From a virus, in IMG/VR virus record IMGVR_UViG_3300017771_000110, positions 1-23,633 of that record: a DNA stretch of 23,633 nt; one strand, written 5' to 3'. Shown one piece after another: positions 4,477 to 23,496 of this stretch (its first letter is position 1; every line of letters starts with the position of its first letter). The notes beneath the pieces were generated by a model. The model saw nothing but the letters and a program-made list of their open reading frames with translations. It ran no database searches and had not been told where the DNA came from. A program made the translations under genes and the position numbers.

Positions 4477-4803
4477 TTACAAATTCTTTCTAATATTTGT
4501 TTTTGTTAAAAAATTATACTTAGTTTTATATAAAATATTCTGTACTGTTCTTTCCGAAATATCGTATTTAATACCTAAGTCAATCATAGTTACACAAATC
4601 TTACCATCATTCCTTTTCAAGAAATCAGCGTAATCTTTTATAATCATATAATCTCGTAATCTTCTAGGCTCTATCAGGCCTTTCTCTGCTAGGAACATTA
4701 AAACATCTTTTATTCCTGCTTCTTCAGAATGTCTATTTTTGATATCTACATAAGCACTTTCGACAAATTCCTTGACAATAGTAAGCTTATTATTTTTTAT
4801 CAT
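4477..4803 (-). CDS. Helix-turn-helix regulator (possibly Mor-like) between tail and head modules
   Basis: A 108-residue basic protein. The N-terminal half is helical; residues about 70-93 (VTMIDLGIKYDISERTVQNI and following LYK) form a helix-turn-helix in which DISERTV is the turn and start of the recognition helix. The general layout, an all-helical N-terminus with a C-terminal HTH in about 110 residues, resembles the Mor/C family of Mu late activators, but I cannot confirm the family. It is out of place among virion genes: the tape measure stop is 66 bases upstream and the protease start 43 bases downstream. Its own start carries ATATCGCAATAT, nearly the palindrome found at the 66-aa gene, so autoregulation and control of head genes are plausible. 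DNA binding is well supported; the target is inference. Confidence 0.68.
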   Translation of the reverse strand: MIKNNKLTIVKEFVESAYVDIKNRHSEEAGIKDVLMFLAEKGLIEPRRLRDYMIIKDYADFLKRNDGKICVTMIDLGIKYDISERTVQNILYKTKYNFLTKTNIRKNL

Positions 4804-19147: not shown

Positions 19148-20575
19148 TTATCCAAAATAAAGCACTTTTCCACCTCTAAAATGCTTATTTAGTGCCATAA
19201 CAAGGCAATCTACCATATCGTCGTGCTTTGCAGCAGGAAATTGTTGACATTGCAGTAAAAACTCCTCATTCCAAGCACCTTTGAGCAAAGACACCCTACC
19301 ACTCTCTATACTAGCACTAATATCTTGAACTCTGGCGACTTTGTCCTTAGTTGGTGGCTTATCTTCCTTAACATTTAGTCCTGTTTCTCTAATTAGTGTC
19401 TGAACAATGGATTTACCACTAGCTTTTGGCTCTACATATATTTTTGACCTACTTGAGTAGCCATTTTTATGCACAAACTTACCTATGTGCTTAATTAAAT
19501 CAGGAAACTCTAATCTTACATTTTGCACTTCCACAATCTGCCACTTGTTTTCAAAGAACTTATAAGCCATAAGTGCAGATGGGTCGTTCTTCTGACTAGC
19601 AGTATATGCAGGGTCAATAACAAAATGAACATCACCATCAATTTTATCAGTATCAATATTAAACCAATTTTTTTGTATCATACCACTATCTGCAGGTGTG
19701 GGTCTTTGTTGCAGTTGCCCTGCATACCCATAAGAGCCAAGAGCAGACTTATAGTCATCTAAAATCTCTCTACCAAACCTTTCTTCCCAAAAAAGCCCAT
19801 TTTTATAATATTCTTCTAAGTGTTGAGGTTTTAAATCATCAGATAATTCTGCAGGAATACATATATGCTTATGCTTATCAGGTGAATTGTACAATAGATA
19901 GCCACTAAGGTCATCTTCGTGAACTCTCTGCATAATAATTATTCTTACCCCTGTCATTGGATTGTTAAGTCTTGAGTATAGTGTTGACTTATACCATTCG
20001 TTAGCATTATCTCTTTCTGTTTCAGATGCTGCATTTTTTGGTGATGTTGGGTCGTCAACTAAAATTATATCCCCCCCCTGTCCTGTAACAGAGCCACCTA
20101 CAGATGTTGCCCTGCGAACACCAAGAAAAGTGTTCTCATATCTAGCCTTGAGGTTTTGGTCTTTTTTGATTTGATATGTTTCGCCCCAATGATTCTGATA
20201 CCATTCGCTTTGAATAATATCTCTACTCCTAGTTGCGTGTTCTATACTAATCTCTGCAGAATAGGAAGCAGTAATAAATCTCATTTTGGGATAAACAGCC
20301 CAACACCAAGCAGGAAACATAACTGTTACAAGAAGTGATTTGGTACTACGGAAGGGTATATTGATTATTATGTCTTTATCTTTCTTTCTACCTTCTTTGA
20401 TTCTTTCTGCTTCTGATTGCAATATATCGCAAAGGTATTTATGGTGAAAGTTTGTTGATAGGGGTACTGATGGCTCTGCTATATCCCAAGCCTTGACAAA
20501 GAACTCGTAAAAGGATTTTTCGCAAATGGCTTTTTCCATAGCCATCATCAGTTGCTTCTTATGATTTTCTTTCAT
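19148..20575 (-). CDS. Terminase large subunit
   Basis: A 475-residue DNA-packaging motor with ATPase and nuclease domains. It pumps DNA through the portal and cuts the concatemer. Visible motifs: a P-loop variant IINIPFRSTKS (about 70-80; usual form IPPRhsKS), Walker B DIILVDDP (169-176), coupling motif IIIMQRVHEDDLSG (212-225), and RNase H-like nuclease acidic residues Asp321 (HFVIDPAYTASQKNDPSA), Glu382 (IYVEPKASGKS) and Asp452/453/456 (KHDDMVDCLVM). Length is normal for this group. It shares one base with the small subunit stop, so the two are translationally coupled. A 90-base gap with a promoter-like pair separates it from the tail operon. Confidence 0.95.
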   Translation of the reverse strand: MKENHKKQLMMAMEKAICEKSFYEFFVKAWDIAEPSVPLSTNFHHKYLCDILQSEAERIKEGRKKDKDIIINIPFRSTKSLLVTVMFPAWCWAVYPKMRFITASYSAEISIEHATRSRDIIQSEWYQNHWGETYQIKKDQNLKARYENTFLGVRRATSVGGSVTGQGGDIILVDDPTSPKNAASETERDNANEWYKSTLYSRLNNPMTGVRIIIMQRVHEDDLSGYLLYNSPDKHKHICIPAELSDDLKPQHLEEYYKNGLFWEERFGREILDDYKSALGSYGYAGQLQQRPTPADSGMIQKNWFNIDTDKIDGDVHFVIDPAYTASQKNDPSALMAYKFFENKWQIVEVQNVRLEFPDLIKHIGKFVHKNGYSSRSKIYVEPKASGKSIVQTLIRETGLNVKEDKPPTKDKVARVQDISASIESGRVSLLKGAWNEEFLLQCQQFPAAKHDDMVDCLVMALNKHFRGGKVLYFG

Positions 20576-22764: not shown

Positions 22765-22791
22765 AATATATTTATTGGTTAAAAACTTTAG

Positions 22792-22799
22792 CAAATATA
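22792..22799 (-). promoter_or_regulatory. -7 element candidate before the 49-aa gene
   Basis: TATATTTG on the minus strand matches TAnnTTTG exactly, 27 bases before the ATG at 22764, leaving room for a short leader. The expected -33 TTTG is not seen at 19-21 bp; the region is so AT-rich that a chance match is possible. Confidence 0.35.
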
Positions 22800-22883
22800 T
22801 AAAAAAATTATATAAATACTAAAAAAGTTTAACCCTTTAATAAATCTTTTTTAATATCCAAGCAAAAACTAAAAAATTTAATA

Positions 22884-22910
22884 CAAATATAAATAAATGA
22901 CAACTTGTCA
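22884..22910 (-). promoter_or_regulatory. Promoter-like element with perfect operator palindrome
   Basis: TGACAA-C-TTGTCA (22898-22910) is a perfect 13-bp inverted repeat. On the minus strand it ends six bases before TATATTTG (22891-22884), an exact TAnnTTTG match, so it fills the spacer between the -7 and -33 positions. That is where a repressor or activator would be expected to act. It could control the 22615-21347 operon. Confidence 0.5.
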
Positions 22911-22974
22911 GAACGGTGTTTTTTTTTAAAATCTAGGAAAATACACCCACCATATATACTATGGCAGATGCTCA

Positions 22975-23046
22975 GCAGTTACTTAGCAGTTTCTTCAGCA
23001 GTTACTTAGCAGTTTCTTGGCAGTTACTTGAGTGTCGCAGTTTCTT
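22975..23046. repeat. Six-copy GCAGTTWCTT direct repeat (iteron-like array)
   Basis: Six exact copies of GCAGTTWCTT start at 22975, 22986, 22998, 23009, 23020 and 23037, alternating A and T at the W position. Spacings are 11, 12, 11, 11 and 17 bases, about one helical turn, so bound proteins would lie on one face of the DNA. The copies fall in different reading frames, so this is a DNA signal, not a repeated protein. It lies in a gene-free, AT-rich region. Replication iterons or an operator array are the main candidates. Confidence 0.8.
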
Positions 23047-23064
23047 ACAAAAAAAATTTGGCAC

Positions 23065-23107
23065 AAAAAAAAGTAGGTGAGGAAATTACACATAAACCCA
23101 CCTACTT
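23065..23107 (-). terminator. Intrinsic terminator after the 110-aa gene
   Basis: Perfect 9-bp inverted repeat AAGTAGGTG / CACCTACTT (23071-23079 and 23099-23107), with further GG-CC pairing inside, is followed on the minus strand by a run of eight T (23072-23065). It lies about 57 bases after the stop of the 110-aa gene. Confidence 0.75.
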
Positions 23108-23163: not shown

Positions 23164-23496
23164 CTATAAACTTTCTTTACAATAACCACATCTTCTGATG
23201 TCTTCGTCAAATGATGCACCACAACAGGCTGATTCCTTTTGGTCAGCATCTCTTAGATAATCTATAAACTCAAAGTTCTCATAGCTATCCCAATCCAAGT
23301 CGTAGTGTGCATAGAACACACCCTCATATGTAAAAGATATATCTAAGTCGTTGTCACCTGTTCTAATATCTACATCATCAAAACCCATAGACGATAAGTA
23401 GTTTTCTACTGATGAATCGCTTGGTCTGATGTCAATAGTATTGTTTTCTCTCCAATCGCTATCGCAATATCCTATGTCACTTCCTGCTCTACACAT
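23164..23496 (-). CDS. Small acidic protein with C-terminal zinc ribbon
   Basis: A 110-residue, very acidic protein starting MCRAGSDIGYCDSDWRENNT. The middle is strand-rich (VDIRTGDNDLDISFTYEGVF, YAHYDLDWDSY). The end carries two Cys pairs, ACCGASFDEDIRRCGYCKES (C91/C92, C103/C106), a probable zinc ribbon. No family is recognised. Its terminator lies 57-100 bases downstream (23065-23107). The region upstream of its start turns into C-rich low-complexity sequence on the plus strand, so no promoter can be judged. Together with the 361-aa gene it makes two zinc-ribbon proteins at this end. Confidence 0.65.
   Translation of the reverse strand: MCRAGSDIGYCDSDWRENNTIDIRPSDSSVENYLSSMGFDDVDIRTGDNDLDISFTYEGVFYAHYDLDWDSYENFEFIDYLRDADQKESACCGASFDEDIRRCGYCKESL

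Follow-up and report, generated by a model that had tools for sequence, protein, structure and literature searches.

In phage P4, the ori and crr elements contain a short repeat in several copies, which are initiator sites bound by the alpha protein. Origins of the lambda type carry four to six direct repeats which adjoin an AT-rich stretch and are recognised by a phage protein (PMC7466680), and the iteron plasmid origins of RK2, F and R6K combine direct repeats and AT-rich DNA with DnaA boxes that assist Rep (PMC10797057). The repeat array described here shares with lambda-type origins a block of direct repeats beside AT-rich DNA, and with iteron plasmids both of these features; a word resembling a DnaA box is present in many relatives but not in the window's subclade. 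It differs from lambda, whose iterons are situated inside the initiator gene O, in that the array is intergenic and lies 3′ of the replication operon. Its 10-bp units are variably spaced, and its likely reader is a separate 65-aa helix-turn-helix (HTH) protein. Unlike in iteron plasmids, no Rep with two winged-helix domains was found here, and the spacing is not helically fixed. The likeness to P4 lies in the several copies of a short repeat, but the motif is unrelated and no alpha-like primase-helicase was found in the group. A repeat block with AT-rich DNA is already known from lambda and iteron plasmids; the intergenic array, its tolerance of spacing and the separate small HTH protein as probable reader set this locus apart. 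No description of the element was found in the literature searched, which covered few subscription journals.

The window, i.e. the whole stretch of 23,633 bp analysed here, is an incomplete virus record in which all recognised genes are on the minus strand. As the initial annotation had reported, GCAGTTWCTT is present in six exact copies at 22975-23046, with plus-strand starts at 22975, 22986, 22998, 23009, 23020 and 23037. An exact-match scan detected no copy in the rest of the window, and 100 shuffles of the window yielded 0.23 copies on average, two at most and never six. Since all genes are on the minus strand, this strand is taken as the working strand of the repeat, and the motif then reads AAGWAACTGC. 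In coding-strand order, the units, all exact matches, are AAGAAACTGC (unit 1, 23037-23046), AAGTAACTGC (unit 2, 23020-23029), AAGAAACTGC (unit 3, 23009-23018), AAGTAACTGC (unit 4, 22998-23007), AAGAAACTGC (unit 5, 22986-22995) and AAGTAACTGC (unit 6, 22975-22984). A degenerate seventh unit on the same strand, GCATCTGC (GCAGATGC on the plus strand; 22964-22971), sits in register 11 bp beyond the sixth, so that the array spans 22964-23046, and similar xTCTGC/CCTGC units close the array in many relatives. Start-to-start spacings are 11, 12, 11, 11 and 17 bp along the plus strand, the last separating units 2 and 1. The period of about 11 bp first proposed is not strictly kept: one spacing in the window is 17 bp, and those of relatives range from 9 to 18 bp. 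The alternation of A and T, likewise seen in the window, is not conserved (relative G003 has AAGTAACTGC throughout) and is due to a local 22/23-bp duplication; TRF reports two alternative units, of 23 bp (score 102) and of 11 bp.

The array follows the 110-aa gene p110 (23164-23496, minus strand), an ORF with homologs in relatives which in the clade of the window is located between hth65, the gene for the 65-aa protein HTH65, and the array. An intrinsic terminator of the upstream operon (23063-23107, minus strand) closes p110; its hairpin at 23071-23107 has an 11-bp stem and runs into U8, with a folding energy of -16.9 kcal/mol and z = -2.7. The array comes after this terminator. A terminator-like hairpin or palindrome lies on the other side of the array at 22943-22971. 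Of the neighbours originally described, the terminator is borne out; on the side of this hairpin are also the palindrome TGACAACTTGTCA at 22898-22910 and two TAnnTTTG motifs. In sister genomes the palindrome TGACAACTTGTCA is either altered or degenerate, and it may be an operator of another regulator. The TAnnTTTG motifs, Bacteroidetes-type -7 elements found by scanning the minus strand, are at 22884-22891 (TATATTTG) and at 22792-22799, the second just before the small ORF that comes next and starts near 22765. AT content in the window peaks at 22766-22858 (0.875 over 80 bp), and this stretch is a candidate unwinding element. The host is probably a marine bacterium of the Bacteroidota, given these promoter motifs and the relatives of terL (19148-20575, minus strand; PHROG 38, 7e-96), the best annotated of which are Croceibacter and Cellulophaga phages (38-44% identity). 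A DNA-level search against annotated phages gave no match.

Scanning IMG/VR by pattern and by terL yielded about 100 loci of relatives. The near sister of the window (G006, 34,594 bp) ends in a 109-bp terminal repeat and is therefore considered circular as assembled. Beyond the point where the window ends, it carries hth65 and then the replication module, all on one strand. The initial annotation took loss of the repeats from relatives with conserved intergenic DNA as evidence against them; in the IMG/VR relatives the array is conserved, and its position and core stay the same throughout the group although flanks and spacing vary. Among 42 distinct arrays, the coding-strand consensus is WGWAACTGCY, with C after the core GWAACTG in 144 of 155 units, and spacings are 11 bp (45 cases), 17-18 bp (29), 9 bp (10), 12 bp (7) and rarer others including 10 bp. 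The array is always in the orientation of transcription, on the coding strand of a control region, and none was found on the reverse strand of the control regions tested. In G016, exceptionally, it lies within an ORF upstream of hth65.

Several further repeats were noted in relatives. Two arrays 1-2.5 kb apart are present in G005, G002, L009, L005 and L010, the second of which begins with GTATCTGCC-type units and, in G002 and L009, carries a DnaA-box-like word. Repeats of GAAACTGCT at 9-bp spacing occur inside or beside small ORFs, where they encode Glu-Thr-Ala repeats (oriented coordinates: G016, 29727-29795; G012, 4593-4616; G014, 26650-26684; G017, 23734-23757); these are either a coincidence or relocated sites, and are treated apart from the array. 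In G001 and G003, 23-bp palindromic units (TTACCTTAGTGTA..TACAC) form an array of their own 3′ of the repeats and are probably operators for a different regulator. Preceding terS and the structural operon in relatives are two to four copies of AAGGGT(T/A) at 11-bp spacing with a TATA-like end, about 90-180 bp and sometimes 0.5-1.2 kb upstream of terS (e.g. L107 about 12583, L124 about 4700). This element, distinct from the array and not seen in the window, is perhaps the activator site of a late promoter.

HTH65 is a stand-alone HTH protein whose gene lies beyond the contig end of the window. In all examined genomes that include the region, it is encoded 5′ of the array, G016 being the one exception. 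The array is present at 52 of 53 HTH65 loci with at least 1.3 kb of downstream sequence, with none on the reverse strand there. Conversely, a DNA-only pattern of three TGAAACTGC at 11 bp, which made no use of protein, retrieved 73 loci. Of these, 69 have an upstream HTH65 gene on the strand of the array, and the remaining four have less than 1 kb of upstream sequence. Protein-first and DNA-first tests thus agree on the linkage. There are 296 HTH65 loci in IMG/VR; none was confirmed in the GTDB genome collection, so that a prophage or host clue is absent, and its matches in annotated phages did not go beyond the HTH portions of HNH endonucleases and similar proteins. A G-tract element (at least three runs of GGGG or more) lies near hth65 in most genomes, with 36 clusters on the coding strand and 0 on the other (e.g. 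L104 about 2600-2650, L110 at 17888), and could possibly form a G-quadruplex. The only G-tract cluster of the window is at the contig end (23548-23633, minus and thus coding strand), where the last bases may be partly misassembled. Contig ends were rejected as physical genome ends, since they are scattered overall, and in three contigs (the window, G008, G010) the break falls at the G-tract.

The structural model of HTH65 (pLDDT 79) is a three-helix HTH with a basic N-terminal arm, the best Foldseek neighbour of which is DNA-bound CENP-B (1hlv; TM 0.61, rmsd 1.5, weak E 0.12). Profiles CENP-B_N (0.0011) and HTH_3 (0.00019) both scored below cut-off, and a search of PDB sequences gave nothing convincing. 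The HTH of CENP-B reads asymmetric sites, and the predicted HTH65 fold, which is like those of the CENP-B/Psq/transposase type (CENP-B 1hlv, IstA 8b4h), would be fit to do so with one monomer at each site. Unlike these proteins, HTH65 stands alone as a phage protein that lacks catalytic and dimerisation domains, and membership in this type is not claimed, as the matches are weak (E 0.12).

A DnaD-like gene is located upstream in all 40 array loci with at least 4 kb of upstream sequence. Relatives encode a DnaA domain IV protein (PF08299, 2e-19), a DUF3127/SSB protein and a weakly DnaD-like protein, so that DnaD-like, DnaA-IV-like and SSB-like replication genes lie in cis to the array, as in iteron origins. 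For the DnaD-like protein, a PDB sequence search retrieved nothing, and its model had no PDB relative. Among close relatives, array type agrees best with the DnaD-like gene and the gene next to it, with an AUC of 0.77, against 0.59 for terS, 0.56 for terL and 0.50 for portal; the contrast is a modest one, and linkage confounds it. In G031 (26915, oriented), the N-terminal domain of the DnaD-like protein has been swapped for HTH_36 (3e-15), joined to the usual DnaD-like C-terminal domain of the group, and the repeat sequence is unchanged; the DnaD-like N-terminal domain is therefore probably not the reader. Together with the linkage of the loci, this swap makes HTH65 the favoured reader of the repeats, though only by association.

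The repeats themselves have an even chance, in our judgement, of being the protein-binding block, or iterons, of a phage replication origin. Of the three readings first offered (iterons, sites for a cooperatively binding regulator, packaging signals), iterons fit best because replication genes lie upstream, the AT-richest DNA alongside, and a DnaA-box-like motif is present in many relatives. The AT-richest 80 bp of the genome is found at most 350 bp downstream of the array in 14 of 27 genomes (3 expected), the window among them; the word GTTATYAACA is about 125-fold denser within 420 bp downstream of arrays than elsewhere (1.26 against 0.010 per kb; 27 in 21 kb against 13 in 1.28 Mb) and lies near the array in 25 of 42 genomes, counts that, like those of the AT maximum, do not represent independent events since the genomes are related. 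TTATTAACA has been proposed as a DnaA box (PMC2751442). As in iteron origins, moreover, the array is a cluster of direct repeats in a non-coding control region.

From these sequence features we infer the following course of events. HTH65 would be made from the early or replication operon just upstream, and a monomer would bind each non-palindromic site of about 10 bp (WGWAACTGCY), coating the array. With the DnaD-like protein, the small partner of the latter and a DnaA-domain-IV-like protein, all of the same module, it would then open the adjoining AT-rich DNA and help to load the host helicase. The same HTH65 complex may also control the downstream promoter.

Several observations speak against an origin. 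Spacing is variable (9, 10, 11, 12, 17 or 18 bp) and not helically phased; constant spacing is typical of iteron plasmids, whose iterons are sensitive to half-turn insertions (PMC10797057), but is not strictly required of origins, so that its lack lowers the claim to membership among iteron origins. GTTATYAACA is absent from the window's own subclade, and two arrays occur in some genomes. GC skew at fourfold-degenerate sites, a check suggested in the initial annotation and run on six genomes, showed no switch at the array and is uninformative on the origin. The AT-rich DNA beside the array could be promoter DNA, and HTH65, with its weak PDB match (E 0.12), looks like a regulator.

The main rival of the origin is an operator, at which HTH65 would bind cooperatively and switch the downstream operon, or read-through from its own operon, with no role in replication. 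We regard this as possible though rather doubtful, and both roles can coexist. A stand-alone HTH65 encoded beside the sites is what an operator would call for, as is the TAnnTTTG motif that nearly all genomes have downstream; the terminator hairpin of some genomes contains one repeat, different palindromic operators crowd the same region, and variable spacing would suit a flexible regulator. Yet the distance from array to promoter motif ranges from about 20 to 390 bp, which is unusual for an activator or a repressor, and an operator leaves both the DnaA-box-like motif and the genome-wide AT maximum unexplained.

It is improbable that the array is a packaging (pac) site to which the small terminase subunit binds in phase. 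In the window and close relatives, terL has the polarity of the array and follows it at a distance of about 2.4 kb, terminases are known to use repeated sites, and headful packaging fits circular assemblies with scattered breakpoints. However, no homologous TerS/TerL was found downstream in 7 of 12 array loci with at least 4.6 kb of downstream sequence, the spacing is out of phase, and the array tracks terminase genes less well than dnaD (see above). Nor does it co-vary with the small terminase gene, as would be expected of a pac site: TerS of G015 is 98% identical to that of G006, yet their array types differ, and TerS of G002 is only 74% identical, yet the array type is the same. It is slightly more improbable still that the repeats work at the RNA level, in a leader that is transcribed from upstream and serves antitermination or protein binding: their orientation always follows transcription and terminator hairpins include some of the copies, but a strong terminator precedes the array, no Rfam family matched (nor was any tRNA found), and the predicted fold of the linked protein is of a DNA-binding type. 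Least plausible is a Chi-like recombination octamer or neutral tandem duplication, despite the 23-bp duplication found by TRF and the genome-wide strand bias of GAAACTGC (107 against 23), since this octamer is rare off the array (about 1 per 10 kb), unlike Chi, and position and core are conserved as flanks and spacing change.

Under the origin reading, the locus may tentatively be viewed as representing a new class of phage origin in uncultured marine Bacteroidota phages, in which a CENP-B-like 65-aa HTH protein, and not an initiator of the DnaD or O type, would read a spacing-tolerant iteron array within a compact locus that also holds a conserved G-tract (a possible G-quadruplex) and DnaA-box-like sites. 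If the origin reading is right, a marine phage group that is abundant and uncultured would have had its replication origin located, and along with it a protein that probably binds this origin. This provides a simple, testable model of one very small HTH protein and one 10-bp site, and the tolerance of spacings from 9 to 18 bp, together with a domain swap that left the sites unchanged, would inform the co-evolution of sites and readers at phage origins.
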